NCBI RefSeq assembly: GCF_041821045.1
Contig: NZ_JBGUAW010000004.1
Location: forward strand, 248,001 to 312,000
DNA length: 64,000 nucleotides
Source of the DNA: Thiohalorhabdus sp. Cl-TMA
GTDB taxonomy: Bacteria; Pseudomonadota; Gammaproteobacteria; Thiohalorhabdales; Thiohalorhabdaceae
Reading direction: 5' to 3'
Positions 5,960 to 63,007 of the stretch are shown one piece after another; position 1 is the first letter of the stretch; every line of letters begins with the position of its first letter. A model generated the notes under the pieces. The model was not told the origin of the DNA, made no database searches, and saw only the letters and a list, made by a program, of their open reading frames with translations. A program made the translations under genes and the position numbers.

Positions 5960-6298
5960 TCACCTTTTGGAGTAATCCGTGGTCCCTTGGAGCTGCTGGA
6001 AGGTAAGGCTGGCAGCCTCCACGGCGACGGCGATGACGAGCCCGGTGGTAATCAGCCCGAACAGGCCGATAAAAACCGCCAGCGCCCTGCCGAGGCCCGA
6101 TACCGGCCGCATGTCCCCATAACCGATAGTCAGGGCGGTAATGAAACCGAAATACAGGCTGTTCCCGAATGACCAGCCTTCCCGATAGCCGGCGGCAGCC
6201 GAAAGAAGGGAGATAATCATCATCAGGCCGAGCAAGAGCGGCAATCCCTCGCCTAGCATGCCGCCCAGATTCCACAGAAACTCGACCGTGAACCTCAT
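5960..6298 (-). CDS. Two-helix potassium channel-like protein
   Basis: A 112-residue membrane protein with the ion-channel pore layout: helix 1 (about residues 18-36), pore loop with the selectivity filter TIGYGD at 57-62, and helix 2 (about 70-92). This is the Ion_trans_2/KcsA-like module; four copies would form a K+ pore. There is no cytoplasmic RCK or ligand-binding domain, so gating is unclear. Start at 6298. The pattern is very clear though the protein is short. Confidence 0.88.
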   Translation of the reverse strand: MRFTVEFLWNLGGMLGEGLPLLLGLMMIISLLSAAAGYREGWSFGNSLYFGFITALTIGYGDMRPVSGLGRALAVFIGLFGLITTGLVIAVAVEAASLTFQQLQGTTDYSKR

Positions 6299-6414
6299 CC
6301 CCTCTCCTCTCGGCCGCTAAGCCAGAGCGAGCTGAGGCCGATTACCCGCTTGGCAACCGTTACCTTTTAGATCCGGCAAGAAAGGCCAACTTTCCTGAAT
6401 ACGCCAATACCGAT

Positions 6415-6984: not shown

Positions 6985-7326
6985 TGCTGCCTCCTCTGTC
7001 TGGCTTCCATGGCCGGAGGCTGCCTACCACGCATACCCGGTGCAGACGGCCCCCTCCCGTCTGCATAAACCTCGTCCGGACGGGCCGGCAACGGAAAGCT
7101 GGCCGCAACTTGGCCGGGCTCGGTTTGGGGACGCGGACGATCCGGGCACGGCCGCACCGGCAAGGGTTCAGGAGGGCAATGGGCGGGGAAATCGGGAAAG
7201 GCGAAGGGATCAGGGCGTGGCGGTAGCGCGCCTCGACCCCGCCCGGAGCCCGGGGCACGCACCTCCCCGGTCCGCCGGGCAGGAAATCGGCCACGGAGGG
7301 CCCACGGCCCCCTCGGGCCCTAGGGC
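6985..7326. other. Intergenic stretch without a recognisable gene
   Basis: 342 bases of very GC-rich sequence between the barrel gene and a small membrane peptide gene. The open frames here are Pro/Arg-rich with no domain pattern or good ribosome site. It presumably contains the barrel gene promoter, but I could not place boxes with confidence. Confidence 0.5.
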
Positions 7327-7518
7327 TCAGTGAAACAGATGCCCGCGGCGAAGGTGGCCCTTGCGGTTGAAATAATGGCCCTTGCGGCGGAGCAGGTAGC
7401 CCCTCTCCCCGCGCCGGGACCGCCGGGACATCCAGAAAGGCACCGCGATGGCGGATACCAGGGCCACCCCGATCGATCCGAGATAGGCGAAGCGCGGCAT
7501 GCGGTTACGTGCTCTCAT
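7327..7518 (-). CDS. Small basic single-pass membrane protein
   Basis: A 63-residue protein with one hydrophobic segment (FAYLGSIGVALVSAIAVPFWM, about residues 10-30) followed by a strongly basic tail rich in Arg, Lys, Gly and His (RRKGHYFNRKGH pattern). AGGGG lies before the ATG at 7518. I recognise no family. The basic, repetitive tail could bind anionic lipid or nucleic acid, but that is speculation. A true gene is likely, given the helix and ribosome site, though not certain. Confidence 0.5.
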   Translation of the reverse strand: MRARNRMPRFAYLGSIGVALVSAIAVPFWMSRRSRRGERGYLLRRKGHYFNRKGHLRRGHLFH

Positions 7519-14682: not shown

Positions 14683-14849
14683 GGTCTATGCCGGTTTTTC
14701 TAATTGCTTTATAAGTGGTTAAAAGGGAACTTTTCGTGGACTTTCCATCCGGGATGCACCCGTACCCAGGTAGTGCAACCCCGGCAATACGGGATCGCCT
14801 TTTGCGGTATAACCAGGGCGGGGAGAAAAAATGGGCTGGGGGGGAATAA

Positions 14850-17108
14850 ATGCATATGGATTCCGAAACCGACGCGCAGCCCCGGGGAGAAGAATCCGGC
14901 CTGTTCGAGCAGTTATTCAATAGGAGCCCGCTTCCCCAGCTCCTGATGGAGCCGGAGCAGGGCGGCATCCTGCGCGCCAGCCCCGCGGCCTGCCGGCTGC
15001 TCGGCACCCCGAAAAGCCGGGTGGAAGGGAGCCTGGCGGGCGACCTGTTTCCGGATGCGGCCGATCGCGTCGCCGATTTCCTGGAGCGGGCGGTCCGGGA
15101 TACCAACGCCTCCCAGCGCATCCGGACCGGGGCCTATCCGCCCACCCCCGGCGTGCTGGAGCTTCGGGGTACTGTCCTGCATGCCGCTGGACAGCTCCAT
15201 ATCCACACCGCCCTGCTGGACGCCTCCCGGGAGGAGGAGCTGACCCGGGTGCTGGGTTTTCAGGAATCCCTCATGGAGCATTTTCCCGATGCCGCCTTCC
15301 TGAAGGACCACCACGGCGTTTACGAATCCTGCAACCAGCGCTTCCTGGAGGGGCTCGGAAAGGACATCCACGAAGTTGTGGGCGCCCGGGACCATGACCT
15401 GTTGCCCGCGCACATCGCCGACCGTTGCACCGCCACCGACCGGGAAGTGCTCACGGAGCAGCGCCCGCGGAAGACCGAGCGCTGGGTCCGGAACACCGAC
15501 GGCGAATGGTCGCTGCTGGAGCTCCTGAAGCTTCCCTATCGGGACACGGACGGCCGGCTCCGCGGCGTCATCGGACTGGGCCGGGACATCACCGACCACC
15601 GCCATACGGAACAGCGCCTCCAGAACAGCGAGCATATGCTGCAGGAGATCCTGGGGGCTTCCCCCGAAGGCTTCTGGATGGGGGATTTCGAGACCCTGGA
15701 AACCGTCGAGGTAAACAGCGCCTTCTGCCGCATGCTCGGCCGGAGCCGGGAGGAGCTGCTCGGAGCCCGGCCCGACGCCTGGCTCGATCCGGAAGACCGG
15801 GAGGCCTTCTGGGAGAAGGCGAATCAGCGCCGTGAGCACAGTACCCGGCATTACGAGGTGCGCTTCCTGGCCAGTGACGGGCACAAGGTGCCGGTGGTGG
15901 CGAACGTCAGCACCTATTCCGATCCCGACGGGCGCCCCGCCTACTCGGTAGCCTTCATAACCGATGTCAGCCGCTTGCGGCATACCGAGAAGAGCCTGAA
16001 ACGGCTGGCCGACATCCTGGAAGCCTTCCCCGGGCCGGTGGGGATCTGCGACGCCGACCTGAATCTCCTCTACCACAATCATTATGCGCAGGAAATGCTG
16101 GCCCCCCGCGACGCCGGGGCCGCCTCGGCGGAAAGCTTCTTCGCCGAGCACAGCCTCCGGGAGGTCCTAGAGGAGGAGGCCCTGCCCACCGCGAGACGGG
16201 AAGGCCTGTGGACCGGGCAAACGGTACTGCTGGACAAGGAAGGCCGGGAGATCCCCTTTTTGCTGACCCTGGTGGCGCACTTCACCCGGGAGGGAAGCGT
16301 GGAGCGGTTCTCCGCCATCGGGGTGGATATTTCGGCGCAGAAGGAAGCGGAGGAGCGGGAGCGTCAATACCTGGAGCAATTGAACCGGGTCAGCCGGCTG
16401 ATCTCCATGGGCGAGCTGATATCCATCCTGAGCCACCAGCTCAATCAGCCGCTCACCTCCTTGAACAACTACGCAGCGGCGGGCAGCCAGCTACTCTCCA
16501 ATCAGGGCGCCATGCCCTCGCAGCTGGGGGAGATCCTGGAAGGCGTGGAGAACGAAGCCCAGAAAGCCTCGGAAATCCTGACGCAGATCCGGAACTTCCT
16601 GAAGGGCCAGGGCCCCGAGCTCCAGCCCCTCGATCTCAACCGGCTCATCCTGGAGATCATTCCCTTCATCTGTACCGGCTGCACCGGGACCGTGCCATCC
16701 ATCCTGCCGGAACTGGAGGAGGACCTGCCCCGCGTCGAGGTGGACCGGGTCCAGATCCAGGAGGCCATCTTCAACCTGGCCCGCAACGGCATGGAATCCT
16801 GCATGGAACAGAATCCGGACAGTCCCGGGCCCTTGATCCTGACCACCCGCCGGGAAGGGGAGTACGTGGAGGTAACCATTACCGACCACGGCACGGGCCT
16901 GCCCGCGGGCCTCGAGCTGGACGCCCTGGCGCCCTTCTTCACCACCAAGGAAAAGGGCCTTGGGCTGGGGCTCTGGATCACCCGCTCCATCATCCAGGCC
17001 CACGGCGGCCGTTTGACGGCCCGGAACAATGCCGAGGCCGAGGGGGCCACCTTTCAAATCCTCCTGCCCGTGACTGAAGAGCCTCCGTCCGAGGAATCCC
17101 GGGAATAG
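14850..17108 (+). CDS. Multi-PAS sensor histidine kinase (second tandem copy)
   Basis: A 752-residue paralog of the preceding kinase with the same domain order: N-terminal PAS-like segment (LFEQLFNRSPLPQLLMEPEQGG), PAS (FPDAAFLKDHHGVYESCNQRF...GLGRDITDHRHTEQ), PAS (EGFWMGDFETLETVEVNSAF), a degenerate PAS, then the kinase core. The catalytic His in ILSHQLNQPLTSL is again residue 529, followed by Gln; NLARNGMES, DHGTGLP and GLGLGLW form an intact ATP site. Near-identical architecture indicates a tandem duplication, with divergence greatest in the N-terminal sensing parts. It has its own 167-base upstream region with an AAAAG-GGAA-CTTTT dyad at 14721-14734. Confidence 0.88.
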   Translation: MHMDSETDAQPRGEESGLFEQLFNRSPLPQLLMEPEQGGILRASPAACRLLGTPKSRVEGSLAGDLFPDAADRVADFLERAVRDTNASQRIRTGAYPPTPGVLELRGTVLHAAGQLHIHTALLDASREEELTRVLGFQESLMEHFPDAAFLKDHHGVYESCNQRFLEGLGKDIHEVVGARDHDLLPAHIADRCTATDREVLTEQRPRKTERWVRNTDGEWSLLELLKLPYRDTDGRLRGVIGLGRDITDHRHTEQRLQNSEHMLQEILGASPEGFWMGDFETLETVEVNSAFCRMLGRSREELLGARPDAWLDPEDREAFWEKANQRREHSTRHYEVRFLASDGHKVPVVANVSTYSDPDGRPAYSVAFITDVSRLRHTEKSLKRLADILEAFPGPVGICDADLNLLYHNHYAQEMLAPRDAGAASAESFFAEHSLREVLEEEALPTARREGLWTGQTVLLDKEGREIPFLLTLVAHFTREGSVERFSAIGVDISAQKEAEERERQYLEQLNRVSRLISMGELISILSHQLNQPLTSLNNYAAAGSQLLSNQGAMPSQLGEILEGVENEAQKASEILTQIRNFLKGQGPELQPLDLNRLILEIIPFICTGCTGTVPSILPELEEDLPRVEVDRVQIQEAIFNLARNGMESCMEQNPDSPGPLILTTRREGEYVEVTITDHGTGLPAGLELDALAPFFTTKEKGLGLGLWITRSIIQAHGGRLTARNNAEAEGATFQILLPVTEEPPSEESRE

Positions 17109-42413: not shown

Positions 42414-43907
42414 CTAACCGGTAATGGCGACCGCCTTGCGCGGCGGGCCGGCGGCGGAACCGGTTCCAGCCTCCGCGGCGAAGCCCGGTCGCGTATCGAA
42501 CCAGGCGAGGCGCTTCCGGAGCGCCGCCACCTCTCCCACGATAATCAGGGCCGGGGAGGCGCTCCGCAACCCTTCGGACAGTTCCGGGAGATCCCCGAGG
42601 GTCCCCACGCGAACGGTCTGACCGGGGGTGGTGCCCGCGACGATCACCGCGGCGGGCGTTCCCGGGGCGCGCCCGTGCGCCAGCAGCCGCTCGCGGATGT
42701 TCTCCAGCCGGCGGAGCCCCATGTAGAAGACCGCCGTGCGGCCGTCGCCGGCCAGGGCGGACCAGTCCGGCTCGGCATCCTCGCGGCAGGAGTAGCCGGT
42801 GGCCAGCAGGCAGGTATCGGCGTGAGCGCGATGGGTCAGCGGGATTCCGGCGTAGGCCGCGCAGCCGGTGGCGGCGGTTACGCCGGGCACCACCTGATAG
42901 GCGACGCCGGCGTCCGCCAGGGCCTCCAGCTCCTCGCCGCCGCGGCCGAAGACGAAGGGGTCGCCCCCCTTCAGGCGCAGGACCCGCCTGCCCCGTCGCG
43001 CCTCCACCACCAGGCGCTCGCTGATCTCCGCCTGCGACATGGTATGGCAGCCCGGCGCCTTGCCCACGGGAATCCGCTCGGCGTCGCGCCGGACCCGCTC
43101 CAGCACCGCCTCGGGGACCAGCCGGTCGTGCAGGACCACGTCGCATTCCTGCATCAGCCGCGCCGCCTTCAGGGTCAGCAGATCCGGATCGCCCGGTCCC
43201 GCGCCCACGAGGTAGACCTCCCCAGGCTCGTCGCCCTCCGACCCGCCCTCCGAGAGGTCGGCCTCCAAGGCGGCGCGGGCGGCGGACTCGCGGCCCGCCA
43301 GCACCGCGCGCCCGATGGGTCCGTCCAGGACGCGCTCCCAGAACCGGCGCCGCTGGTCCAGGTCCGGCAGGACCGCCTTGACCCGGTCCCGATAGCCGGC
43401 CGCCAGGGCGGCCAGCCGCCCGAGGGTATCCGGGAGCCAAGCTTCCAGGCGCGCCCGGATCTGGCGCGCCAGCACCGGGGCGGCGCCCCCGGAGGAGATG
43501 GCCACCACAAGGGGCGAGCGATCCACCAGCGCGGGCATGATGGCAGTGCCCGCCTCCGGATCGTCCACGGCGTTCACGGGGATGCCCAGGGTGCGCCCGG
43601 TGGCGCCAACGGTCCGGTTTACCGCCGGATCGCCGGTGGCCGCCACCACCAGCACCTTGCCGCACGCATCGGTCTCCCGGAAAGGCCGGGCCCGATGGGC
43701 GATGGTCCCGTCCGCCGCCAATTCGGCCAGCTCGGCGTCGATCTCCGGAGCCACCACCGTGATCCGGGCGCCCGCCCGCCGCAGCAGGGCCACCTTGCGG
43801 GCCGCCACGGTCCCGCCGCCCACCACCAGGCAGGGGCGCCGGTGCAGGTCGTGGAACAGGGGCAGATAGGCCAGACCGCCGGTTTCGGAAGGATTGTCAC
43901 CGCTCAT
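42414..43907 (-). CDS. cysG: Siroheme synthase CysG (dehydrogenase/ferrochelatase plus methyltransferase)
   Basis: A 497-residue bifunctional enzyme making siroheme from uroporphyrinogen III. The N-terminal part (CLVVGGGTVAARKVALLRRAGARITVVAP) is the NAD-dependent precorrin-2 dehydrogenase and ferrochelatase; the C-terminal part (VYLVGAGPGDPDLLTLKAARLMQECDVVLHDRLV, RLKGGDPFVFGRGGEE, VVPGVTAATGCAAYAGIPLTHR) is the SAM-dependent methyltransferase. It begins with ATG in a 4-base ATGA overlap with nasA, so it is made together with the nitrate and nitrite reductases that need its product. Confidence 0.95.
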   Translation of the reverse strand: MSGDNPSETGGLAYLPLFHDLHRRPCLVVGGGTVAARKVALLRRAGARITVVAPEIDAELAELAADGTIAHRARPFRETDACGKVLVVAATGDPAVNRTVGATGRTLGIPVNAVDDPEAGTAIMPALVDRSPLVVAISSGGAAPVLARQIRARLEAWLPDTLGRLAALAAGYRDRVKAVLPDLDQRRRFWERVLDGPIGRAVLAGRESAARAALEADLSEGGSEGDEPGEVYLVGAGPGDPDLLTLKAARLMQECDVVLHDRLVPEAVLERVRRDAERIPVGKAPGCHTMSQAEISERLVVEARRGRRVLRLKGGDPFVFGRGGEELEALADAGVAYQVVPGVTAATGCAAYAGIPLTHRAHADTCLLATGYSCREDAEPDWSALAGDGRTAVFYMGLRRLENIRERLLAHGRAPGTPAAVIVAGTTPGQTVRVGTLGDLPELSEGLRSASPALIIVGEVAALRKRLAWFDTRPGFAAEAGTGSAAGPPRKAVAITG

Positions 43908-46567
43908 GCCGTCTCCTCCGCCAGACTCGTTCGAACCAGCTCCCGCACCTCGGCGAGGCAGGAGCCGCAATTGGTGCCGGCGCCGAGCCGCTCGCCCACG
44001 GCTTCCGCGTCCACCGCGCCGGAGCACACCGCCTCCCGGATCTGCGCGGCGTCCACCCCGAAGCAGGCGCAGACCGCCGGCCCCGTGCCGGCACCCTCCT
44101 CCAGGCGCCCGGCCAGGAGGGCATTGCGCTGGCCGGGATCCAGCCATGCCTGCTCGAACAGGCCGCTCAGCCAGGCACGGTCGGCAGCCTGGGCGCCGGG
44201 ACCCGCGAACAGGACCGCCTCCAGCCGGCCGTCCACCAAGCAGGCGGCGCGATAGCGGCCCGCGCCGGGATCCCGCAGCTCCAGCCAGTCACCCTGCGCG
44301 CCCAGCCGCTCCCGCCGCCAGGCGGCCCAGTCCGCCGGGGCCTCGCCGCCGGCCAGCCGGTAGTCCCAGCAGGCGATCCGCCGCGCGGCGGCCCAGTAGG
44401 GAACGCCGTCGAGCTCCACGGGGCGCCGCGACAGCAGGAGCCCTTCCCAGGCCGCGGCAAAGGGCTCCGGAAGCACAGTTGCGTGCTTGGAGGCGGGCTG
44501 TCCGGATACTGCGTCGAGGCGGGGCGCCACGAGGGCGTCCACGCGTCCCCGGGCGGCGAACGGCCCGCTCCAGTGGAAGGGCACGAACACCGAGCCCGGC
44601 CGTTGGCCGACGTCCACCCGGACCCGCGCCAGCACCTCGCCCCGGTCGTTGGCGAGCCGCGCCAGGGCACCATCGGCGAGCCCCAGCGCCGCCGCGTCTT
44701 CCGGGTGGAGCGCAGCGTAGGGCTCGGGACTGTGCTCGGAAAGCCGCGCCACATCCCCCGTCCGGGTCATGGTGTGCCACTGGTCGCGGACGCGGCCGGT
44801 GTTGAGCACCAGCGAGCCGTCCGATCCGGCGCCCGCCGGGCGCTCCGCCTCCACGGGGACGAGCCGTGCCCGGCCGTCGGCCGTGGCGAACACGCCGTCG
44901 CTGAACAGCCGGGCGGTGCCGCGCGGATTGGCGGCGTTAACCGGCCACTGCACGGGCTCCAGGGCGTCGTACTCGGCGTCGGAAAGCCCCGCCAGGGCGC
45001 TGATGTCGAAGGGCCGCGCGCCGTGGTTCTCGAAGCCCGAGAGGGCCGCGTGCTCGCGGAAGACGGCGGCGGGGGACTCGTAGGGGAAGCCCCGGCCGAA
45101 CCCCAGACGACGCGCAACCCGGGACATGATCCACCAGTCCGGCCGCGCCTCGCCGGGCGGCGCCCGGAAGGGCCGCTGCCGCGAGATGCAGCGCTCCGAA
45201 TTGGTCACCGTGCCGTCCTTCTCCCCCCAGGCGGCCGCGGGCAGCAGGATGTCCGCCGTTGCGGTGGTGTCGGTGCGCGCCACGCAATCGGAGACCACCA
45301 CCAGCTCGCAATCGCCCAGCGCCGCCCGCACCCGGTCGGCGTCCGGCAGGCTCACGGCGGGATTGGTGGCCATGATCCAGACCGCCTTGATACGGCCCTC
45401 CGCGATTCGGTCGAACAGCTCCACCGCCTTGGGGCCCGGCTCATCCGCCACCGCCTCGGTTTCCCAGAAGCGGGCCAGACGGTCCACGGCATCCGGCGTG
45501 AGCTCCATGTGGGCGGCGAGCTGATTGGCGAGGCCGCCCACCTCGCGCCCGCCCATGGCGTTGGGCTGCCCGGTGAGCGAGAAGGGTCCCGCCCCGGGCC
45601 GGCCGATGCGTCCGGTGGCCAGATGCACGTTAAGGATGGCGCTCACCTGGTCGGTGCCCCGCTCGGACTGGTTGACCCCCTGGGAGAAGGCCGTGACCGT
45701 CCGCTCGTTGGCGGCGAAGGCGGCGTAGAAGGCGGCCACCTCCGCGGCGCTCAGCCCGCAGGCCTCGGCCACGGCGCTGATGGAAGGAGCGGAGGCGCGG
45801 GCGGCCCGCAGGGCTTCCTCCACGCCTCCGGTGTGCCCGCGCAGGAAATCCGCTTCGAAAGCGTCGCTCTCGGCCGGATGGACGAGCAGGCCGTTCCAGA
45901 GCACCGCGTCGGTGCCGGGTGCAAGGGCCAGGTGGCGGTCGGCCAGCTCGCAGGTAGCCGTCCGGCGGGGGTCGATGACCACCACCTGCATGGCGGGATT
46001 CGCCTTCCTGGCGGCCTGCAGGCGCTGGAACCAGACAGGATGGGTCCAGGCGGCGTTGGAGCCCGCCAGCACCACCAGATCGGCCTCCTCCGCGTCGGCG
46101 TAGGCGCCCGGCACCGCGTCCGCCCCGAAGGCCCGCTTGTGCCCGGCTACCGCGGAGGCCATGCACAGGCGGCTGTTGGTGTCGATGTTGGCGGTGCCCA
46201 GGTAGCCCTTCACCAGCTTGTTGGCCACGTAGTAGTCCTCGGTGAGGAGCTGGCCGGAGCAGTAGAGGGCCACCGCTTCGGGCCCGTGCCGGTCGATCAC
46301 CGTGCGCAGTCCGTCGGCGACCGCATCCAGGGCCGTATCCCAGTCCGTCTCCTGGCCGGCCACCACCGGCCGCAGCAGGCGGCCGCGGTCATCCAGGGTG
46401 TCGGCCAGGGCCGCGCCCTTGGAGCACAGGCGGCCCGCATTGGCGGGATGCCGCCGGTCGCCCTGCACCGCCGCGCCCTCGGGCCCGCCGGCGGCGCGCA
46501 CGCCGCAGCCCACCCCGCAGTAGGGGCAGGTGGTGCGCACCGGGCCCGCCTCCCTCTGTTCGCTCAC
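43904..46567 (-). CDS. nasA: Assimilatory nitrate reductase catalytic subunit
   Basis: An 887-residue molybdopterin enzyme reducing nitrate to nitrite. An N-terminal [4Fe-4S] motif (CPYCGVGCGV ... LCSKG) is followed by the bis-MGD oxidoreductase body (YCSGQLLTEDYYVANKLVKGY, DTNSRLCMASAVAGHKRAFGAD with the Cys that is the likely Mo ligand region). The C terminus carries a BFD-like [2Fe-2S] domain (CACFGVDAAQIREAV...GTNCGSCLAEV) as in NasA of gammaproteobacteria. It starts with GTG at 46567 in a GTGA overlap with nirD. No signal peptide, so cytoplasmic. Confidence 0.95.
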   Translation of the reverse strand: MSEQREAGPVRTTCPYCGVGCGVRAAGGPEGAAVQGDRRHPANAGRLCSKGAALADTLDDRGRLLRPVVAGQETDWDTALDAVADGLRTVIDRHGPEAVALYCSGQLLTEDYYVANKLVKGYLGTANIDTNSRLCMASAVAGHKRAFGADAVPGAYADAEEADLVVLAGSNAAWTHPVWFQRLQAARKANPAMQVVVIDPRRTATCELADRHLALAPGTDAVLWNGLLVHPAESDAFEADFLRGHTGGVEEALRAARASAPSISAVAEACGLSAAEVAAFYAAFAANERTVTAFSQGVNQSERGTDQVSAILNVHLATGRIGRPGAGPFSLTGQPNAMGGREVGGLANQLAAHMELTPDAVDRLARFWETEAVADEPGPKAVELFDRIAEGRIKAVWIMATNPAVSLPDADRVRAALGDCELVVVSDCVARTDTTATADILLPAAAWGEKDGTVTNSERCISRQRPFRAPPGEARPDWWIMSRVARRLGFGRGFPYESPAAVFREHAALSGFENHGARPFDISALAGLSDAEYDALEPVQWPVNAANPRGTARLFSDGVFATADGRARLVPVEAERPAGAGSDGSLVLNTGRVRDQWHTMTRTGDVARLSEHSPEPYAALHPEDAAALGLADGALARLANDRGEVLARVRVDVGQRPGSVFVPFHWSGPFAARGRVDALVAPRLDAVSGQPASKHATVLPEPFAAAWEGLLLSRRPVELDGVPYWAAARRIACWDYRLAGGEAPADWAAWRRERLGAQGDWLELRDPGAGRYRAACLVDGRLEAVLFAGPGAQAADRAWLSGLFEQAWLDPGQRNALLAGRLEEGAGTGPAVCACFGVDAAQIREAVCSGAVDAEAVGERLGAGTNCGSCLAEVRELVRTSLAEETA

Positions 46568-46926
46568 GACTCCGTCTCCACCGAGCGCGCGGCCTCGGCG
46601 GCACCGCCCGTATCGGGCGCCAGGTAAACCCGGCCGTCCTCGACGCGCACCGGGTGCCTGCGCGTGCAGCCCTCGTCCGGGGCCACCGCCTCGCCGCTGC
46701 CCAGCTCGATTTGCCAGTTGTGCAGCGGACAGGCAACGCGATGGCCGAGGACCATGCCCTGGGAGAGCGGGCCGCCCTGGTGGGGGCAGCGGTCGTCCAG
46801 GGCGAACACGGCGTCGTCGGCGGCGCGGAAGACGGCGATGTCCCCCAGCTCGGTGCGGACCACCCGGGCGCCCCGGGGCGGAATATCCGCCAGGGCCCCG
46901 ATCTCCATCCATTGACTCTCGCTCAT
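46564..46926 (-). CDS. nirD: Nitrite reductase small subunit NirD (Rieske-type)
   Basis: A 120-residue Rieske-fold partner of NirB. The motifs CPHQGGPL and CPLHNWQIEL retain both Cys-x-His type ligand pairs, so a [2Fe-2S] cluster is likely bound, as in assimilatory NasE-type subunits. It lies 22 bases downstream of nirB and overlaps nasA by 4 bases. Start MSESQWMEIG at 46926. Confidence 0.93.
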   Translation of the reverse strand: MSESQWMEIGALADIPPRGARVVRTELGDIAVFRAADDAVFALDDRCPHQGGPLSQGMVLGHRVACPLHNWQIELGSGEAVAPDEGCTRRHPVRVEDGRVYLAPDTGGAAEAARSVETES

Positions 46927-46948: not shown

Positions 46949-49387
46949 TCAGGCCGTCACTTCCTTGATGGGGATGTACGAACGCTGGTCGCCGCTCTCG
47001 GCGTGCGCCCGCCAGGGATCGTTCTGGGCGTAGCCCTGGGAATGGGCGAACCGGTCGGCGAGCGCCCGGCGCGTCTCCGCGTCGTCCACCACCCGCTCGC
47101 GGACGGCGGCCAGGCCCACCCGCTCCACCCAGTGGGCGGTACGCTCCAGGTAGTGCGCTTGCTCGCGGTAGAGCTGCAGGAAGGCGGCGGTGTACTCCTT
47201 CACCTCCTCCGCCGTGTCCACGCGGGTCAGGAAGTCCGCGGCGCGCACCTTGGTGCCGCCGTTGCCGGCCACGTGCAGCTCCCAGCCGGACTCCACCGCC
47301 ACCACGCCCAGGTCCTTGATGGTGGATTCGGCGCAGTTGCGCGGGCAGCCGGAGACCGCCAGCTTCACCTTGTGCGGGGTCCAGGCGCCCCAGGCCATGT
47401 GCTCCAGCTCTATTCCCAGGTTGGTGGAGTCCTGCACGCCGAAGCGGCACCACTCCTGTCCCACGCAGGTCTTCACCGTACGCACCGCCTTGCCGTAGGC
47501 GTGGCCGGAGACGAAGCCGGCGGCGTTGAGGTCCGCCCAGACGTGCGGCAGGTCCTCCTTGGTGACGCCGAGCAGGTCGATGCGCTGTCCGCCGGTGAAC
47601 TTCACCGTGGGCACCTCGTATTTCTCCGCCACCTCGGCGATGGCGCGCAGCTCGGCGGGGCTCGTCACGCCGCCCCAGATGCGGGGAACCACCGAGTAGG
47701 TGCCGTCCTTCTGGATGTTGGCGTGGGCCCGCTCGTTGATGAAGCGCGAGGCGGGGTCGTCGGCGTACTCCCCGGGCCATTCGCAAAGCAGGTAGTAGTT
47801 GAGCGCCGGCCGGCATTTGGTGCATCCGTCCTCGTTTTTCCATTCGAGGAAATGCATGACCTCGGGAATGGACTTGAGGGCGTGGTCGCGGATGGCCGCC
47901 CGTACCTCGTCGTGGCTGTAATCCGTGCATCCGCAAACGGCCTTCTTGCGCGGTGTCTCGTCGTAGCCCTCGCCCACCGTGAAGGCCAGCAGCGACTCCA
48001 CCAGCCCGGTGCAGGAGCCGCAGGAGGCGGACGCCTTGGTGTGGGCGCGCACCTCGTCGAGGGTGAACAGGCCCTTCTCGGTGATGGCCTTGGTGATGTC
48101 GCCCTTGCAGACGCCGTTGCAGCCGCAGATCTCGGTCTCGTCCGCCATGACCGCCACCCGGCCGCCCTCGCCGTGGCCGGCGTCGCCCACGTGCGCCTGG
48201 CCGAACAGCAGCTGGTCGCGCATGTCGCTGATGTCGGTGCCGTCGCGCAGGAGCTCGAAGTACCAGGAGCCGTCGATGGTGTCGCCGAACAGCACGGCGC
48301 CCTCGATGCGGTTGTCCCGGACCACCAGCTTCTTGTAGATGCCGCTCGCCGCGTCGTGCAGCACCATGGACTCGGTGTCCTCGTCCCCCTCGAAGTCACC
48401 GGCGGAGAACAGGTCGATGCCGGAAACCTTGAGCTTGGTGGAGGTGACGGAGCCCTCGTAGCGACCACTGCCGAGCTCCGCCAGGTGATTGGCCGCCACC
48501 TTGGCCTGCTCGAACAGCGGTGCCACCAGTCCGTAGGTGGCGCCGCGGTGCTGGACGCACTCCCCCACGGCGTAGACCCGCGGGTCGAAGGTCTGCATGG
48601 TATCGCCCACCACCACGCCGCGCTCGCAGTGCAGGCCGGAGGCCTCGGCCAGGGACTTCTCGGGCTGGATGCCGGCGGCCATCACCACCAGGTCCGCTTC
48701 CAGCGTCCGGCCGTCGGCGAGCCGGATCCCGCTTACCGCCTCCTCGCCGAGTACGGCCTCGGTCTTGGCGGAGAGCTCGAAGGCGATGCCGCGCTCTGCC
48801 ATGGACTGCTGGAGCATGCCCCCCGCCTCGGCGTCGAGCTGGCGCTCCATGAGGTGGTCGGCGAGGTGGACCACGGTCACCTCCATGCCCCGCTCGCGCA
48901 GCCCGTGGGCCGCCTCCAGGCCGAGCAGGCCGCCGCCGATGACCGCCGCCCGGCGTCCCTTGGCGCTGGCCGCCACCATGGACTCCACGTCGGCGATGTC
49001 GCGGAAGGTCACCACCCCGTCCAGGTCCGAGCCCGGGATGGGGAGCCGCACCGGTCGTGAGCCGGTGGCCAGCAGCAGCCGGTCGTAGCCCGCCTCGGTG
49101 CCGTCGGCGGCCACCACCCGGCGCCGGGCCCGGTCCAGGGTGGTCACCGGAGCACCGGTGTGCAGGGTGATGCCGTGGCTCTCGTACCAGTCCCGCCCAT
49201 TGAGGACGATCTCCTCCGGGGTCTTCTCTCCGGAGAGCACCGGCGACAGCAGGATGCGGTTGTAGTTGGGATGGGGCTCGGCCCCGAACACGGTTATGTC
49301 GTAACGGTCGGGGGCGAGCTTGAGCAGCTCCTCCAGGGTCCGCACCCCGGCCATGCCGTTGCCCACCAGGACCAGTCGTTCACGCAT
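46949..49387 (-). CDS. nirB: NAD(P)H-dependent assimilatory nitrite reductase large subunit
   Basis: An 812-residue siroheme enzyme reducing nitrite to ammonium. Domain order: FAD/NAD(P)-binding module (LVLVGNGMAGVRTLEELL, AAVIGGGLLGLEAAHGL), rubredoxin-reductase-like C-terminal domain, BFD-type [2Fe-2S] domain (CGCNGVCKGDITKAI...SCGSCTGLV), a second Cys-rich segment (KKAVCGCTDYSHDEVRAAI), ferredoxin-like half-domain and the [4Fe-4S]/siroheme domain (TCVGQEWCRFG and SGCPRNCAES supply the four cluster Cys). Start MRERLVLVG at 49387. A GC-rich hairpin precedes it at 49416-49439. Confidence 0.97.
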   Translation of the reverse strand: MRERLVLVGNGMAGVRTLEELLKLAPDRYDITVFGAEPHPNYNRILLSPVLSGEKTPEEIVLNGRDWYESHGITLHTGAPVTTLDRARRRVVAADGTEAGYDRLLLATGSRPVRLPIPGSDLDGVVTFRDIADVESMVAASAKGRRAAVIGGGLLGLEAAHGLRERGMEVTVVHLADHLMERQLDAEAGGMLQQSMAERGIAFELSAKTEAVLGEEAVSGIRLADGRTLEADLVVMAAGIQPEKSLAEASGLHCERGVVVGDTMQTFDPRVYAVGECVQHRGATYGLVAPLFEQAKVAANHLAELGSGRYEGSVTSTKLKVSGIDLFSAGDFEGDEDTESMVLHDAASGIYKKLVVRDNRIEGAVLFGDTIDGSWYFELLRDGTDISDMRDQLLFGQAHVGDAGHGEGGRVAVMADETEICGCNGVCKGDITKAITEKGLFTLDEVRAHTKASASCGSCTGLVESLLAFTVGEGYDETPRKKAVCGCTDYSHDEVRAAIRDHALKSIPEVMHFLEWKNEDGCTKCRPALNYYLLCEWPGEYADDPASRFINERAHANIQKDGTYSVVPRIWGGVTSPAELRAIAEVAEKYEVPTVKFTGGQRIDLLGVTKEDLPHVWADLNAAGFVSGHAYGKAVRTVKTCVGQEWCRFGVQDSTNLGIELEHMAWGAWTPHKVKLAVSGCPRNCAESTIKDLGVVAVESGWELHVAGNGGTKVRAADFLTRVDTAEEVKEYTAAFLQLYREQAHYLERTAHWVERVGLAAVRERVVDDAETRRALADRFAHSQGYAQNDPWRAHAESGDQRSYIPIKEVTA

Positions 49388-49602: not shown

Positions 49603-50931
49603 TCACCCTTCCTTGGCGGTTGCGGGCTTGCGCGGGATCAGCCGGCTGTCGAACAGGCCGTGCTCCTCGGGGTGGCGCTCATAGCGGGCGGCCCAGAAGT
49701 AGAAGGCGAGGAAGGGCACGAACATCCAGAGCGCCACCAGCAGGTATCCCATGTGGATGTTGCCGCTAGAGCCGAACACCAGCGGGTAGACGATGCCGCC
49801 CGCGGTGGAGACGCCGCCGATGAAGCCGGCCGCCACGCCGGGACGCTCCGGGAACAGCAGCGGGACCAGGGCGAAGGTGCCGCCGGTGCCGAAGCTCACG
49901 AAGATGCCGAAGGCCACCAGCGCCACCACCGACCCCACCAGGGAGCCGGAGAGTCCCGCCGCGGTGAGCAGCGCCATGGAAAGGGTGATCAGGATCAGGG
50001 CCAGCGCCAGCCAGTGGATGCGCGGGCTGTAGGGCAGGCCCTTGGCGAGCACCGGGAAGGGCGTCCAGCCCTTGCGCTGCCAAAGGTCGGACATGTAGCC
50101 CGAGAAGGGCCGGAACAGGCTGGCGTTGAAGGACTGCACCGCCGCGAAGGTCCCGGCGGCGATCTGCACCTGCGCCGCGCCCTCGAAGCCCAGGCCCGCG
50201 ATGGCCTCCTTGAAGCCCTCGGCGTAATAGCCCGGCAGCCAGGCGTTCATGGCGATCTCCAGGCCGAAGGACATGGCGTAGGCGAGCATCAGCGCGATGG
50301 CGAGGTAGCGGGTCCAGACATACACCGTGTCGCGCATGCCGCTGGAGGCGCGCGCCTCGGCGGCCCGCTCCGTGCTGCGGGCGGCGCGGCCGCGCCACAG
50401 GTACCAGACCCCCATGAGCAGGGCGATCACCCCCAGATGCAGGAAGGCGTCCCCGTACTCGGTGCCGTACAGACGCGGCAGCAGCAGCGCCCCCATGCCG
50501 GCGCCCACGTTCCCGGTTCCGGCATAGAGCCCCTCGGCGGTACCGATCTCGTGCTCGTCGAACCACTGGGCCACGTGCTGGATGCCCACCACGAAGGACA
50601 CCCCGGCGACGGCCACGATCAGCCGCTCGATGAACAGCAGGGTGTAGTCGGTGACGAAGGCGGAATGGATGCTCACCAGCCCCGCTCCGATAAGAATGAC
50701 CGCGAACACCCGCGGCGCCCCGTAACGGTCCGAGGCCCAGCCGGCGATGATGCGCCCCACCGGGGCCAGCCAGATGGCGGAGCTGGCCAGCAGGCCGAGC
50801 TGGGCCAAGGTCAGATCGAACTCCTCGGCGATGCTCGGACTGAACGCCGCGGTGGAGAACCACATCAAGAAGCACCAGAAGAAGCCGACAGTGGCGATCA
50901 CCAGCTGCTCGACCTTGTGGGTCCTGCCCAT
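49603..50931 (-). CDS. narK: NarK-type nitrate/nitrite MFS transporter
   Basis: A 442-residue major-facilitator protein with 12 helices. It carries the family signature regions IAGWASDRYGAPRVFAV, YAGTGNVGAGMGALLLPRLYG (first nitrate signature) and LVPLLFPERPGVAAGFIGGVSTAGGIVYPLVFG (second signature, Gly-rich). In this context it imports nitrate for assimilation. The ATG at 50931 follows a strong GAGGAGG. Its 5' leader contains the NasT-type antiterminator described separately. First gene of the transport-reduction-siroheme operon. Confidence 0.93.
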   Translation of the reverse strand: MGRTHKVEQLVIATVGFFWCFLMWFSTAAFSPSIAEEFDLTLAQLGLLASSAIWLAPVGRIIAGWASDRYGAPRVFAVILIGAGLVSIHSAFVTDYTLLFIERLIVAVAGVSFVVGIQHVAQWFDEHEIGTAEGLYAGTGNVGAGMGALLLPRLYGTEYGDAFLHLGVIALLMGVWYLWRGRAARSTERAAEARASSGMRDTVYVWTRYLAIALMLAYAMSFGLEIAMNAWLPGYYAEGFKEAIAGLGFEGAAQVQIAAGTFAAVQSFNASLFRPFSGYMSDLWQRKGWTPFPVLAKGLPYSPRIHWLALALILITLSMALLTAAGLSGSLVGSVVALVAFGIFVSFGTGGTFALVPLLFPERPGVAAGFIGGVSTAGGIVYPLVFGSSGNIHMGYLLVALWMFVPFLAFYFWAARYERHPEEHGLFDSRLIPRKPATAKEG

Positions 50932-50984: not shown

Positions 50985-51030
50985 AAAAAACGCCCGCCCG
51001 CATGCCCAAGCTCGGGAATGCGAACGGGCG
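50985..51030 (-). terminator. Conditional intrinsic terminator in the narK leader
   Basis: Two 13-base arms (RNA CGCCCGTTCGCAT from 51030-51018 and its partner at 51003-50991) pair with two G-U wobbles and are followed by six T on the minus strand (50990-50985). Its 5' arm overlaps the 3' arm of ANTAR hairpin P2 (51025-51030), so the two structures exclude each other. It lies 54 bases before narK. Confidence 0.9.
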
Positions 51031-51149
51031 CCGTTGCCCGGGTACGGGCCGTCACTGGCCCGTCGCTGTAATGCGGATCCCGGTCCGCCTTTGGACCGGC
51101 CATCCCACCGCGGAGCCGGGTCCGCGGCTGGAACCGACACCGTTGCCGG
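51025..51149 (-). promoter_or_regulatory. NasT/ANTAR-responsive antiterminator leader of narK
   Basis: On the minus-strand RNA, P1 (51080-51099) is a 7-base stem closing the hexaloop AAAGGC, and P2 (51025-51040) a stem CGGGC/GCCCG closing the hexaloop AACGGC. Both loops have A1 and G4, the features ANTAR proteins read. A third candidate (51134-51149, loop AACGGT, one G-U pair) lies upstream. P2 shares bases with the terminator. Binding of NasT should hold P2 and prevent termination. Confidence 0.88.
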
Positions 51150-51175
51150 CTCCAAAGGGATTCCTCAGTAAATTA

Positions 51176-51190
51176 GCAACCGGCATGCCA
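51176..51190 (-). promoter_or_regulatory. Sigma-54 promoter of the narK operon
   Basis: Minus-strand TGGCATG-CCGG-TTGC matches the -24/-12 consensus TGGCACG-N4-TTGC with one change, and has the GG-N10-GC spacing. Transcription would start near 51164, so that all hexaloop hairpins lie in the leader RNA. Confidence 0.8.
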
Positions 51191-51296: not shown

Positions 51297-52826
51297 TCAG
51301 CCCCGCCCGAGCTCCTGGACCCGGTACTGGCCGAGCGCCCCCTGCAGCCCCTGCGCCAGCTCCTCCAGCTGCTGTGCCGCACTTTCGATCTGGGTCACGC
51401 TCTCCGCCACGTGGTCCACATTGCCGGCGATGTCGTCCATGTTGCCGGTGTTCTCGGCCATGGTAGCCGCCAGCTCCTCGGTGGCCGCGGCGATCTGGCC
51501 GGCGGTACGATCCGTCTCCTCGATCCGCTCCAGGACCTCGCCCATCTTGTCGCGCACATCGGTCATGGCGGTTACCGAGGCCTCCGAGTGCTCGCGCAGC
51601 TCGCCCACGATCCCGTTCACCTGCCCGGTGGCATGGGCGGTCTGCTCCGCCAGCTGGCGCACCTCGTCCGCCACCACCGCGAAGCCCTTGCCCTGCTCGC
51701 CGGCGTTGGCCGCCTCGATGGCGGCGTTCAGCGCCAACAGGTCGGTCTTCTTGGCGATGGCCTGGATAGCCTCGATGATCTCGTCCACCCGCCGGGAGGA
51801 ATCCTTGAGAGCGGTGATGCGCTCGGCGGCGTTGCTCACCGCTTCCATGCCCTCCTGGGTGCGCTCCGTGGAGCGCGAGGTGGCGTCGGATACCGCACCG
51901 ATATTGCCGGCCACGTCCTGGACAACCTGGTTGAGCTCGCGGGTGGAGCCCTGGAGATAATCCACCTGGGAGCGCGCGTCGTGCGCGTTGTCCCGGATGC
52001 CCCCGGCGGTGGATACCAGCTCCTCGCTGGCGGCGGCCAGCCTGCCGGACTGATCCTGAATGCCCAGCACCGTATGGCTCTGGTTCTCCAGCAGGCTGTT
52101 GTAGGCAGAGTACAGCTGACCCATTTCGTCATCGGCCCACTGAATCGCCAGTGGCCGGGTGAAATCGCCCCGGCGCACCGACTCCATGCGGTCCCGAAGC
52201 TGGTTGAGCTGGGCCATGAGCGGGGTCAGCCCGAAGGAGCGGACCACCTCCACCACCACCAGGATGGCCACCGTCAGGCCCAGCGCTAGATACTGCTGGC
52301 GCCGCTTGGAGGCGGCGGCCGAGGCCTCCAGCATGTCCACTGCCCGGTCCTGGTTGCGGAGAACCCGGGGCGACAGCTCCCGCACCCGCTCCAGACTGGA
52401 ATCGGCGGGCGCCGCCAGGAAGGCAGTCAGGGCCTGCCGATAGTCGCTCCAGAGGGTTCCCACCTTGCGCATCTGCGCCCGGGTGGCCGGGTCCTCGATG
52501 GGCGCGAGGCCGATCTCCTCGTCGCCCTCCAATAGGTCGTGATGCGCCTCCTCGAAGGCCTGCATGGTCTTGCGGGCCACCGCGGGCGCCAGCAGTCCCT
52601 GGTTCGCCAGCAGCACTTCCTTGGCCATGCGCTGCGAGAGCATGCGCTGCTTACCGGCCATGTTGATGGCCTTGGCGCTGGCCCCCATGGACAGATAGAG
52701 GTTGATGGTGATCATTCCGGCCAGCAGGAAGATCAGCCCGAAGGCGAACAGGTACTGGTGCTCCACTTTCTTGACGCCGAGGAGCCGGAGAGAGCGCTGA
52801 AAGAAAACGGATAGCCGGAAACGCAC
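51297..52826 (-). CDS. Methyl-accepting chemotaxis protein with PilJ/NarX-type nitrate-sensor domain
   Basis: A 509-residue chemoreceptor. Membrane helix 1 (about residues 26-46) is followed directly by a P-box-like segment INMAGKQRMLSQRMAKE (about 53-69), the nitrate/nitrite-binding motif of NarX/NarQ and PilJ-type sensors; then a periplasmic four-helix region, helix 2 (about 178-196), HAMP (LTPLMAQLNQLRDRMESVRRGDF) and the signalling hairpin with tip IEAIQAIAKKTDLLALNAAIEAANAGEQGKGFAVVADEVR. It should report periplasmic nitrate to CheA. It sits between nasS and narK and has its own NasT-type leader, tying taxis to assimilation. Confidence 0.92.
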   Translation of the reverse strand: MRFRLSVFFQRSLRLLGVKKVEHQYLFAFGLIFLLAGMITINLYLSMGASAKAINMAGKQRMLSQRMAKEVLLANQGLLAPAVARKTMQAFEEAHHDLLEGDEEIGLAPIEDPATRAQMRKVGTLWSDYRQALTAFLAAPADSSLERVRELSPRVLRNQDRAVDMLEASAAASKRRQQYLALGLTVAILVVVEVVRSFGLTPLMAQLNQLRDRMESVRRGDFTRPLAIQWADDEMGQLYSAYNSLLENQSHTVLGIQDQSGRLAAASEELVSTAGGIRDNAHDARSQVDYLQGSTRELNQVVQDVAGNIGAVSDATSRSTERTQEGMEAVSNAAERITALKDSSRRVDEIIEAIQAIAKKTDLLALNAAIEAANAGEQGKGFAVVADEVRQLAEQTAHATGQVNGIVGELREHSEASVTAMTDVRDKMGEVLERIEETDRTAGQIAAATEELAATMAENTGNMDDIAGNVDHVAESVTQIESAAQQLEELAQGLQGALGQYRVQELGRG

Positions 52827-52873: not shown

Positions 52874-52919
52874 AAAAAAACGCCCGTCCCCACGCCCGAC
52901 AGGGACGTGGGGACGGGCG
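52874..52919 (-). terminator. Conditional intrinsic terminator in the chemoreceptor leader
   Basis: A perfect 14-base stem (RNA CGCCCGTCCCCACG from 52919-52906 and its partner at 52894-52881) with an 11-base loop, followed by seven T on the minus strand. It lies 47 bases before the chemoreceptor start; its 5' arm contains the 3' arm of hairpin P2. Confidence 0.93.
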
Positions 52920-52985
52920 CCGTTGCCCGTGTGCGGACCCACCCTGGTCCGCGCTTCTCGTTCGTGCCGGCCCGCCATTGGACCG
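52913..52985 (-). promoter_or_regulatory. NasT/ANTAR-responsive antiterminator leader of the chemoreceptor
   Basis: P1 (52968-52985) closes the hexaloop AATGGC with a 6-base stem containing one G-U; P2 (52913-52930) closes AACGGC with a perfect stem ACGGGC/GCCCGT. Both loops have A1 and G4. The 17 bases CGGGCAACGGCGCCCGT are identical in the narK leader. P2 overlaps the terminator 5' arm. Confidence 0.88.
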
Positions 52986-53015: not shown

Positions 53016-53031
53016 TTCAAGACCCGTGCCG
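53016..53031 (-). promoter_or_regulatory. Weak sigma-54-like site before the chemoreceptor leader
   Basis: Minus-strand CGGCACG-GGTC-TTGAA has the -24 GG and correct spacing but GA instead of the near-invariant GC at -12. If inactive, the chemoreceptor is transcribed by read-through from nasT-nasS. Confidence 0.35.
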
Positions 53032-53100: not shown

Positions 53101-54390
53101 TCACGGTGCGCGCCGCGGCTCGCTCAGCCGGGTATCGGCTCCGGCCGCCTCCTCCCTGCTATCCGACTGGCAGGTGCCGGAGCGGGCGAGGACCGGATAG
53201 AAGCGGGCGCCGTCCAGGAAGCAGTCCGGGCCCATGGGGATGGGCTGGGAGGCCGCCCGCAGGGTCCAGGGCGCGCAGTGGAAGCCCTCTCCCTTGCGGT
53301 CCACCGTGGGGTAGGGAACCCCCAGCTCGGCGGCCACGCGCCGGTAAAGCCCGGGCTTGTAGACCGCCGCGGCGGTGGCCGCCACGTCCTGGGCGCGCGG
53401 CAGGTCGCCCCACCGGATCATCTGCGCCAGGAACCAGGACGCGTGGCTTCGCCACGGGAAATTGGCTGCGTAGCGGTGAAAGACGAAGAAATCCCGGAGC
53501 AGCCGCTCGCCCCCGGCCATCTGCATGCGCCCGGATAGCCCCCGCTCGATGGCCGTGCGTGGGGCACCGACGTAGGCGCCGTCCGACAGGATGCCGGCCG
53601 CCTCCCGACGGTGATCGGGGTCGTCCAGCCAGCGCGCCGCCTCCAGCAGGGCCCGCAGCAGCGCCTGGTGGGTGCGCGGATGGCGGCCCGCCCACTCCCG
53701 GGTGATGCCCAGCACCTTTTCCGGGCTGTTGTTCCACAGGTCGTAGCTGGTGGCCACCATGCGCCCCAGGCCCGTTTCCGCCGCGCGGGTGTTCCAGGGC
53801 TCGCCGACGCAGTAGCCGGCGATGCCGCCGTGCCCCAGGGCGGAGACCATCTGCGGCGGCGGCACCACGGTGAGCCGCACGTCCCGGTCGGGATCGATGC
53901 CGCCCGCCGCGAGCCAGTAGCGCAGCTCGTAGTTGTGGGTGGAGGCGGGGAACACGTGGGCGAAGGTCAGGGGCGGATTGCCCTGCCGCCGGTCGGCCTC
54001 GATGACCCGCTTGAGCGCCCGGGCGCTGCCGAGCGGCGAGTCGGCCTCCTCCCGCGGCGCCAAGGCGCGCATCCGCTCGTGGAGGGCATTGGACAGGGTG
54101 ATGCCGTTGCCGCCCAGCCCCATGCCGAAGGCCGTCACCATGGGCCGGTTCACGGCACTCACCCCGGAGGTGGCCGCCAGCGGCATGGTAGCGAGCATGT
54201 GCGCACCATCCAGGGCGCCGAGGGCCACCTTGTCGCGGATGTTGGCCCAGGAGGCCTCCCGAACCAGGGTGACGTCCAGGCCGTTCCGGGCGAAGAAGCC
54301 CAGCTCCTTGGCCATGACCAGCACGGCGCAGTCGGTGAGCGGGATGAAGCCCAGCCGCAGGGTGGACTTCTCGATGGTGGGGCGGTTCAT
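53101..54390 (-). CDS. nasS: NasS nitrate-sensing regulatory protein
   Basis: A 429-residue relative of the NrtA/CmpA nitrate-binding proteins (LRLGFIPLTDCAVLVMAKELGFFARNGLDVTLVREASWANIRDKVALGALDGAHMLA, GYCVGEPWN, ASWFLAQMIRWG). It has no signal peptide or lipobox, so it is cytoplasmic, as NasS is. In characterised NasST systems, NasS sequesters NasT when nitrate is absent and releases it when nitrate binds. It lies 30 bases downstream of nasT in the same direction. Start at 54390. Confidence 0.92.
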   Translation of the reverse strand: MNRPTIEKSTLRLGFIPLTDCAVLVMAKELGFFARNGLDVTLVREASWANIRDKVALGALDGAHMLATMPLAATSGVSAVNRPMVTAFGMGLGGNGITLSNALHERMRALAPREEADSPLGSARALKRVIEADRRQGNPPLTFAHVFPASTHNYELRYWLAAGGIDPDRDVRLTVVPPPQMVSALGHGGIAGYCVGEPWNTRAAETGLGRMVATSYDLWNNSPEKVLGITREWAGRHPRTHQALLRALLEAARWLDDPDHRREAAGILSDGAYVGAPRTAIERGLSGRMQMAGGERLLRDFFVFHRYAANFPWRSHASWFLAQMIRWGDLPRAQDVAATAAAVYKPGLYRRVAAELGVPYPTVDRKGEGFHCAPWTLRAASQPIPMGPDCFLDGARFYPVLARSGTCQSDSREEAAGADTRLSEPRRAP

Positions 54391-54420: not shown

Positions 54421-54999
54421 TCAATCGAGCAGATCGGCCATGGCCAGCAGGTCCCGGGCCACCTCCTCCAGGGGACGGCCCCGGTCCATGGCCATTTTCC
54501 GCAGGGTCTTGTAGGCCATTTCCTCGCTGAGGGCGCGCTTGTCCATCAGCAGTCCCTTGGCCCGATCCACTTCCTTGCGGCCGGCCAGCTTGTTTCGGGT
54601 GGCCTCCAGCTCGGCGCTCAGGGCCTGATGCTCCCGGAAGCGTTCGATGGCCACCTCGATCACGGGCTGAATGCGCTCCGGCCGCAGGCCGTCGACCACG
54701 TAGGCACTGACCCCTGCCTGGATGGCCGACCGGATGGTATCCCCGCCGCCTTCCTCGGCGAACATCACCACCGGGCGGGGATGGTCCTCCCGGAGGGCCT
54801 GCATGTGCTCCAGGGTGTCCCGGTCCGGGAGCTCCATATCGATGATCACCACGTCCGGGCCCAGCTCCTCCACGCGGGTCCGCAGGTCTGTGCCGCTCGA
54901 AAGCCGAGCCAACAGCCGATAGCCGGCGGCGGCCAGCCCCTGCTCCACCTGGGCGGCCCGCTCCGGGTCGTCATCCACCAGCAAGATCCGAAGGCTCAT
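54421..54999 (-). CDS. nasT: NasT ANTAR-domain antiterminator
   Basis: A 192-residue two-domain protein: a receiver-like domain (LRILLVDDDPERAAQVEQGL, VVIIDMELPDRDTLEHMQAL) and a C-terminal ANTAR RNA-binding domain (RNKLAGRKEVDRAKGLLMDKRALSEEMAYKTLRKMAMDRGRPLEEVARDLLAMADLL). It binds paired hexaloop hairpins in mRNA leaders and prevents termination. Two matching leaders occur in this window. Start ATG at 54999. A sigma-54 promoter and an NtrC-like dyad lie upstream. Confidence 0.94.
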   Translation of the reverse strand: MSLRILLVDDDPERAAQVEQGLAAAGYRLLARLSSGTDLRTRVEELGPDVVIIDMELPDRDTLEHMQALREDHPRPVVMFAEEGGGDTIRSAIQAGVSAYVVDGLRPERIQPVIEVAIERFREHQALSAELEATRNKLAGRKEVDRAKGLLMDKRALSEEMAYKTLRKMAMDRGRPLEEVARDLLAMADLLD

Positions 55000-61507: not shown

Positions 61508-63007
61508 ATGCCATTACCCAACGTTTTCATGATCGTGCCCAGCGCCTTTCTGTCGGTGCTGATCTGGCTTGTCCTGCTGTCCGCCCTGCTCTATGCCGCG
61601 CGGGTACCGATACACCGGGTCATCCTCTCCGCCAGCCGCGGTCTGCACCGCGCGCTGCGGTTGTCCGCCTTCTCTGTCCAGCGCGCCGAGGACCGGATCG
61701 CCGAGCGCAACCGCCAGGTGCTCCTGGCCCAGGGCCGCGAGGCGGCGGAGCGCCAGATCGAGCGGGAGTTCGACCGGGTGGACGAAACGGTGCATCGCGA
61801 GCTCGCCGGCTACCCCGACCTCCACCGGCGGATGAGCGAGGAGATCACCGCCATCGAGGAGGAGCACAAAAACAGCCAGGACGTCCCGCCGACTCCCCCG
61901 GGCTGGACGGAGGCCGTGGACGCCGTTGCCCGGATCCCGGCCAAGGCCGACCCCATGGTGGGCAATATCCTGGAGGACATCCGCAAGTCCCTGGTTAAGG
62001 CCCACGAGAAAGCCATCACGGAATACCGCCGAGCCACCGGGGAACGGCACAAGCTCCTGGAGCGCATGCGGCCGCATTGGCGCAACCTGCAGCAGCAGGT
62101 GGCCGACGTGGATCGGAACATCAACAGCCTCCTGGAGCGCAGTCAGGCCATCGACCGGCGCATGCAGGAGTACGAGGAGACGGTCCGCGGAACGGAGCGG
62201 GCCGTGCGCATGCTCTCCTCGTCCACCCTCAGCCAGTTCTTCATTTCCCTGGTGGTGATGCTGATCGCCATCGGCGGCGCCACCATCAACTTCCACCTGA
62301 TCGCGCGGCCCATGGCGGAGATGGTCGGTGGCACCAGCGACATCGCCGGCTTCCGGACCGCCGACATCGCGGCCCTGGTGATCATCTTCGTGGAGGTCTC
62401 CATGGGCCTGTTCCTCATGGAGTCGCTGCGCATCACCCGATTGTTCCCGGTGATCGGCGCACTGAGTGACCGCCAGCGCAACCGCATGGTCTGGGTCACC
62501 TTCGCCATCCTGTTCGCGCTGGCCTCCGTGGAGGCGGGGCTGGCCTACATGCGCGAGGTGCTCATGCAGGACCAGCTCGCCACCTCGGCCCTGCTGCGGG
62601 GCGACGGCTCCTCCGAGGCGGTGAGCAGCTCCTTCCGCTGGATCACCACCACCGCCCAGATGGGGCTGGGCTTCATCCTGCCCTTCGCCCTGGTGTTCGT
62701 GGCCATACCCCTGGAAACCTTCGTGCAGTCCCTGCGGACGGTGCTCGGCATCCTCGCCGTGGGCGCCCTGCGGGTGCTGGCCTTCTTCCTCCGGTTGCTG
62801 TCCAGCGGCTCCCGGTACATCGGCAATCTGCTCGTCGACCTCTATGACCTGCTGATCTTCGCACCGCTCTGGATCGAAGCCCGGCTGAGCGAACGGGGCA
62901 GAAGCACCCAGGGCGCCGCCGAAGGGGCCGGGAGCGGCACAGCGCGCGCCACGCGGTCCGGGACAGCCGGCGAAAGCCAGGACAGCACCGAGGGAGAACC
63001 GGCATGA
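61508..63007 (+). CDS. Coiled-coil multi-helix membrane protein of unknown function
   Basis: A 499-residue protein. One N-terminal helix (about residues 8-30) is followed by a long charged coiled-coil region (about 45-230), then about four membrane helices between 250 and 445, and a polar Gly/Ser/Glu tail. Long helices ending at the membrane recall mechanosensing or scaffold proteins, but I recognise no named family. It overlaps the following VWA lipoprotein gene by 4 bases (ATGA), so the two are probably one functional unit. Start ATG at 61508. Confidence 0.72.
   Translation: MPLPNVFMIVPSAFLSVLIWLVLLSALLYAARVPIHRVILSASRGLHRALRLSAFSVQRAEDRIAERNRQVLLAQGREAAERQIEREFDRVDETVHRELAGYPDLHRRMSEEITAIEEEHKNSQDVPPTPPGWTEAVDAVARIPAKADPMVGNILEDIRKSLVKAHEKAITEYRRATGERHKLLERMRPHWRNLQQQVADVDRNINSLLERSQAIDRRMQEYEETVRGTERAVRMLSSSTLSQFFISLVVMLIAIGGATINFHLIARPMAEMVGGTSDIAGFRTADIAALVIIFVEVSMGLFLMESLRITRLFPVIGALSDRQRNRMVWVTFAILFALASVEAGLAYMREVLMQDQLATSALLRGDGSSEAVSSSFRWITTTAQMGLGFILPFALVFVAIPLETFVQSLRTVLGILAVGALRVLAFFLRLLSSGSRYIGNLLVDLYDLLIFAPLWIEARLSERGRSTQGAAEGAGSGTARATRSGTAGESQDSTEGEPA

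Follow-up and report, generated by a model that had tools for sequence, protein, structure and literature searches.

The window, a stretch of 64,000 nucleotides (nt) from Thiohalorhabdus sp. Cl-TMA, contains a nitrate locus whose features all lie on the minus strand, in the order nasT, nasS, leader L1, chemoreceptor gene, leader L2, narK, nirB, nirD and a gene for a NasA-type assimilatory nitrate reductase. Judged from its sequence, this arrangement likely represents a NasS-NasT system with two antitermination leaders, in which NasT would turn on an McpN-type chemoreceptor via L1 and narK-nirB-nirD-nasA via L2.

L1 is composed of (i) a first hairpin (P1, 52968-52985) with hexaloop AATGGC (loop 52979-52974) on a stem of 6 base pairs (bp), (ii) a middle hairpin (Pm, 52933-52952; 7 bp) with hexaloop AGGGTG, likewise carrying A1 and G4, (iii) a second hairpin (P2, 52913-52930) with hexaloop AACGGC (loop 52924-52919) on a 6-bp stem, and (iv) an intrinsic terminator (52874-52919) with a perfect 14-bp stem (52919-52906 paired with 52894-52881) followed by seven uridines (52880-52874). 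The 3' arm of P2 (52918-52913) is contained in the 5' arm of the terminator (52919-52906), so that P2 and terminator are mutually exclusive. Unconstrained folding of full-length L1 and L2 yields P1, Pm and the terminator, while RNA of either leader ending before the complete terminator forms P1, Pm and P2. A sequence-only reading of this DNA had described the two outer A1/G4 stem-hexaloops and the overlapping perfect terminator of L1 as an ANTAR-type layout, and all these elements stand as described; L2 and the middle hairpins of both leaders had been overlooked. As the distance from the U-run of L1 to the GTG start codon of the receptor gene is only 47 nt, transcription of the receptor gene must cross the terminator; no promoter-like site was found in these 47 nt.

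L2 (51100-50985) is located between the receptor gene and narK and contains P1 (51080-51099, hexaloop AAAGGC), a 7-bp Pm (51044-51063, hexaloop AGTGAC with A1 and G4), P2 (51025-51040, hexaloop AACGGC) and an intrinsic terminator with six uridines (50985-51030). Upstream lies a sigma54-like promoter, TGGCATGCCGGTTGCT (51175-51190; score 14.5 of 15.5, with 1 of 500 shuffles as good). L1 and L2 share 74 % identity over 115 nt (E 1.6e-13), and both retain 18 of 18 hairpin pairs as well as 13 of 14 terminator pairs. Between them, Pm and the terminator each show two double compensatory changes, with P1 and P2 nearly unchanged. The simplest history suggested by this comparison would be a leader duplication, with one copy now serving the receptor.

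It is improbable that L1 is a mere terminator of the nasTS transcript and a remnant of such a duplication, the receptor being expressed independently of NasT. Its position directly after nasS, its character as a diverged copy of L2 and a weak promoter match upstream (CGGCACGGGTCTTGAA, 53016-53031; sigma54-like, 12.5 of 15.5, with 7 of 500 shuffles as good) would agree with this, but hexaloops, stems, 14-bp terminator and P2/terminator overlap are all intact in L1, its terminator and middle stem show compensatory changes relative to L2, and the receptor start codon follows the U-run at short distance with no promoter-like site between.

Neither is L1 merely the usual nas-operon leader with an inserted receptor gene, since downstream of that gene the nas operon is equipped with a leader and a sigma54-like promoter of its own. 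Of 49 other leaders, 30 carry such a sigma54-like site at a distance of 35-95 nt upstream of the P1 loop; the site of L1 is poorer. That L1 leads the whole nas operon, with the receptor as co-transcribed first gene and L2 as a second checkpoint, appears rather unlikely: the common strand and the order of all genes from nasT to nasA would agree with this, but L2 is a complete leader behind a strong promoter match of its own, and the receptor would in any case remain under NasT.

The two leaders stand out clearly from background. A structural filter requiring two AA-N-G hexaloop hairpins and an overlapping terminator, applied to about 70 nas loci from the class to which the organism belongs, gave 51 matches on the nas-coding strand (a count that includes the two of the window and some sites counted repeatedly where loci overlap) and no match on the opposite strand of these loci. 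A covariance model (R1) was trained on 28 filter-found leaders of other genomes, none of them from the window. Its best match in the whole 3.74-Mb genome is L2 (39.4 bits, E 3.1e-6) and its second is L1 (36.4 bits, E 1.6e-5); no further site of the genome has E<0.07, the first non-leader scoring 21.4 bits (E 0.07). The filter result together with the model ranking of L1 therefore excludes chance. The proposed search with ANTAR RNA models was thus successful for L1 with the model built from other leaders, whereas the Rfam scan of the window matched no ANTAR family and gave no match at useful score. A third model match (61915-61952) is without the first hexaloop, lies inside another gene and was taken as chance. 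The plain pattern AANGGC...TTTTT alone proved uninformative, its counts resembling those of the reversed control.

The regulator gene nasT (54421-54999) encodes a response regulator with ANTAR antiterminator domain (Pfam ANTAR 5.4e-18, Response_reg 1.2e-14); its start is likely the ATG at 54999, an upstream extension of the open reading frame being possible. NasT is the only ANTAR protein encoded in the genome and therefore the sole candidate reader of the leaders. A sigma54-like site before nasT (55086-55071) was matched in quality by 24 of 500 shuffles and was disregarded. The adjacent nasS (53101-54390; Pfam NMT1_2 6.1e-89) encodes an NMT1_2-type nitrate-sensor protein, at the N-terminus of which no signal peptide was visible by sequence inspection; this fits a cytoplasmic sensor, unlike the periplasmic NrtA. 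The order nasT, nasS, receptor confirms the earlier placement of nasT two genes upstream of the receptor gene. At the level of sequence, the proposed control of the receptor by NasT gains support from the single ANTAR protein and is strengthened by the separate leader L2.

Nitrate is known to dissociate NasS-NasT, upon which NasT binds the nasA leader (PMC3795266), and hairpin I of the Paracoccus denitrificans nasA leader is required in vivo (PMC5424462). In the proposed circuit, NasS would hold NasT in the absence of nitrate, and transcripts begun before the receptor gene would end at the L1 terminator. Binding of cytoplasmic nitrate or nitrite to NasS would release NasT, which may then bind the A1/G4 hexaloop hairpins as the leader is transcribed; P2, which shares its 3' arm with the terminator, would thereby be held in the antiterminator form, allowing RNA polymerase to enter the receptor gene. 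The same NasT acting at L2 would turn on narK-nirB-nirD-nasA. The receptor would thus be produced alongside the uptake and reduction genes, probably only once internal nitrate is detected, and taxis towards external nitrate would be switched on once nitrate has been found and assimilated.

The chemoreceptor gene (51297-52826) starts with GTG, preceded by AAGGGAAG as ribosome site, and encodes a protein with PilJ ligand-binding domain, HAMP domain and methyl-accepting chemotaxis protein (MCP) signalling domain (Pfam PilJ 3.3e-20, HAMP 6.8e-8, MCPsignal 1.5e-36). No other PilJ-domain protein is encoded in the genome, which has about 19 MCP matches and also encodes CheA and flagellins. The earlier assignment as a PilJ-type, McpN-like receptor was borne out by these domains, by the match of the ligand domain to the nitrate-bound structure of McpN (PA2788) from Pseudomonas aeruginosa (6GCV; E 6.8e-15, versus 7e-5 for PilJ) and by an intact N-box: INMAGKQRMLSQ at residues 54-65 perfectly fits the published pattern [IVL][ND]xAGxQRML[ST]Q, and the nitrate-contacting arginine is R61 in both proteins (pattern and arginine of McpN from PMC6381276). 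The protein is thus probably an McpN-type nitrate chemoreceptor, with nitrate as the presumed ligand. A replacement of A59 of McpN by K59 may point to a NasT-controlled receptor that does not sense nitrate directly, responding to another anion or an indirect signal; given the perfect N-box with conserved R61, the far better match to the nitrate-bound McpN domain than to PilJ and the nas-locus context, this is quite unlikely.

Several points weigh against NasT control of a nitrate-induced receptor. The promoter candidate of L1 is only a sigma54-like match, degenerate at -12. The linker between the P1 and P2 loops of L1 (49 nt) is long compared with that of EutV RNA, in which 20 additional linker nt abolished antitermination (PMC8934654); linkers as long as that of L1 do occur in several nas leaders, and the middle hairpin may compensate for the length. 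Pairs in the training alignment are 97 % paired with covariation far above shuffles, but these counts are partly circular, the leaders having been selected partly for paired stems, and weight is therefore placed on the genome search. The predicted sign, induction of the receptor by nitrate, is opposite to that in P. aeruginosa, where nitrate reduces the mcpN transcript independently of NarX and a NasT leader is not reported (PMC6381276). Finally, the argument is drawn from sequence throughout and from one genome: no orthologous receptor locus was found in which conservation of L1 could be followed.

In other genomes of the class, 59 leader-like sites were detected with the model, 52 of which precede nitrate/nitrite genes (41 for NrtA/NasS-type binding proteins, 8 NirB-like, 2 NarK and 1 NasA). 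The others precede porin-like or unassigned genes or are matches without U-run. In a second sample, drawn from the phylum, the gene behind the leader encodes a binding protein, NarK or a NirB-like protein at all 26 loci examined. No chemoreceptor gene was found behind any of the about 85 leaders of other genomes, the gene behind a few of the class sites being unidentified; the leader-receptor arrangement is rare and, in this sample, unique. Among 369 genomes of the class, the nearest relatives of the receptor (L023, L052-L056) share 36-41 % identity and have neither nas genes nearby nor a leader. Both receptor and nasT are absent from the other two of the three genomes of the genus.

Other loci of the survey display related features. 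In L115 (G028), a gene for a PilJ N-box chemoreceptor-like protein (5890-7389) lies close upstream of nasT, with no leader before it. L127 (nasT on the plus strand) encodes, directly behind a nasS-like gene, a secreted protein (about 14240-15020) that has two PilJ N-box motifs but lacks an MCP domain, possibly a periplasmic nitrate-binding partner; resembling double-PilJ proteins are also encoded in G197, G213 and G313. Two leaders each, before different genes, are present in the nas loci L111, L131, L152 and L130. Outside nas clusters, ANTAR leaders are found between genes for an ANTAR regulator and a porin-like outer-membrane protein in L208 (2758-2808, on its minus strand) and L216 (2092-2142).

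Both the dual-hexaloop rule for ANTAR target RNAs (PMC3369931) and the structure of dual-hexaloop RNA recognition (PMC8934654) are established. L1 and L2 share with the leaders of the NasT/NasR/AmiR/EutV type (PMC3369931, PMC8934654, PMC3795266, PMC5424462) two A1/G4 hexaloop hairpins, the second overlapping an intrinsic terminator, and the location beside nasS-nasT; they differ in the control of a chemoreceptor, in a paralogous second leader for the nas genes and in a third A1/G4 hairpin in the linker. The nearest precedent is an ANTAR RNA overlapping the start of an MCP gene in the same 2012 survey (PMC3369931). According to the legend of its Figure S3, that RNA overlaps the ribosome-binding site and is suggested to act on translation, in contrast to the terminator, nasST and nitrate-type ligand domain observed here. 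This published link between an ANTAR RNA and a chemotaxis receptor gene lowers the novelty of the present case, although layout and proposed mechanism differ. The literature searched, which does not cover most subscription papers, yielded no account of a chemoreceptor under NasT control.

The 7-bp A1/G4 hairpin in the linkers of L1 and L2 recurs elsewhere. Such a hairpin is present in 10 of 26 leaders with linkers of at least 33 nt (both window leaders included); shuffles lead one to expect 0.48 and never gave more than 3 in 500 rounds. The second most frequent combination at positions 1 and 4 of linker hexaloops occurs four times. What is counted as the middle hairpin may actually be P1 in two of the ten (L078, L108). 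Since lengthening of the linker by 20 nt abolished EutV action (PMC8934654), one may hypothesize that a middle ANTAR hairpin allows long-linker leaders to work. More tentatively, and at somewhat less than even probability, long-linker NasT leaders could constitute a three-hexaloop class, their middle A1/G4 hairpin passing the NasT dimer on from P1 to P2; the leader would have been duplicated here to make a periplasmic nitrate chemoreceptor a second independent target of NasS, resulting in nitrate-induced nitrate taxis.

The genes behind L2 begin with narK, encoding a NarK-type nitrate/nitrite transporter (49603-50931; NCBIfam TIGR00886 2e-48, under the curated cut-off), followed by nirB (46949-49387; TIGR02374 2.7e-286), nirD (46564-46926; TIGR02378 1.9e-28) and the gene for the NasA-type assimilatory nitrate reductase (43904-46627, start approximate; Pfam Molybdopterin 5.2e-70, NasC/NasA models 1e-117 to 1e-119, under cut-off).

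Most known cases of ANTAR antitermination concern metabolic genes. If the proposed control of the receptor is true, it would link a sensor of nitrate inside the cell (NasS) with one for nitrate outside (the PilJ domain) and provide a feed-forward rule for when the cell chases nitrate, with a sign opposite to that in P. aeruginosa. Two leaders in one locus, served by one NasT, would allow side-by-side comparison, and the apparent third hexaloop would be relevant to the question of how long linkers are spanned by ANTAR dimers.
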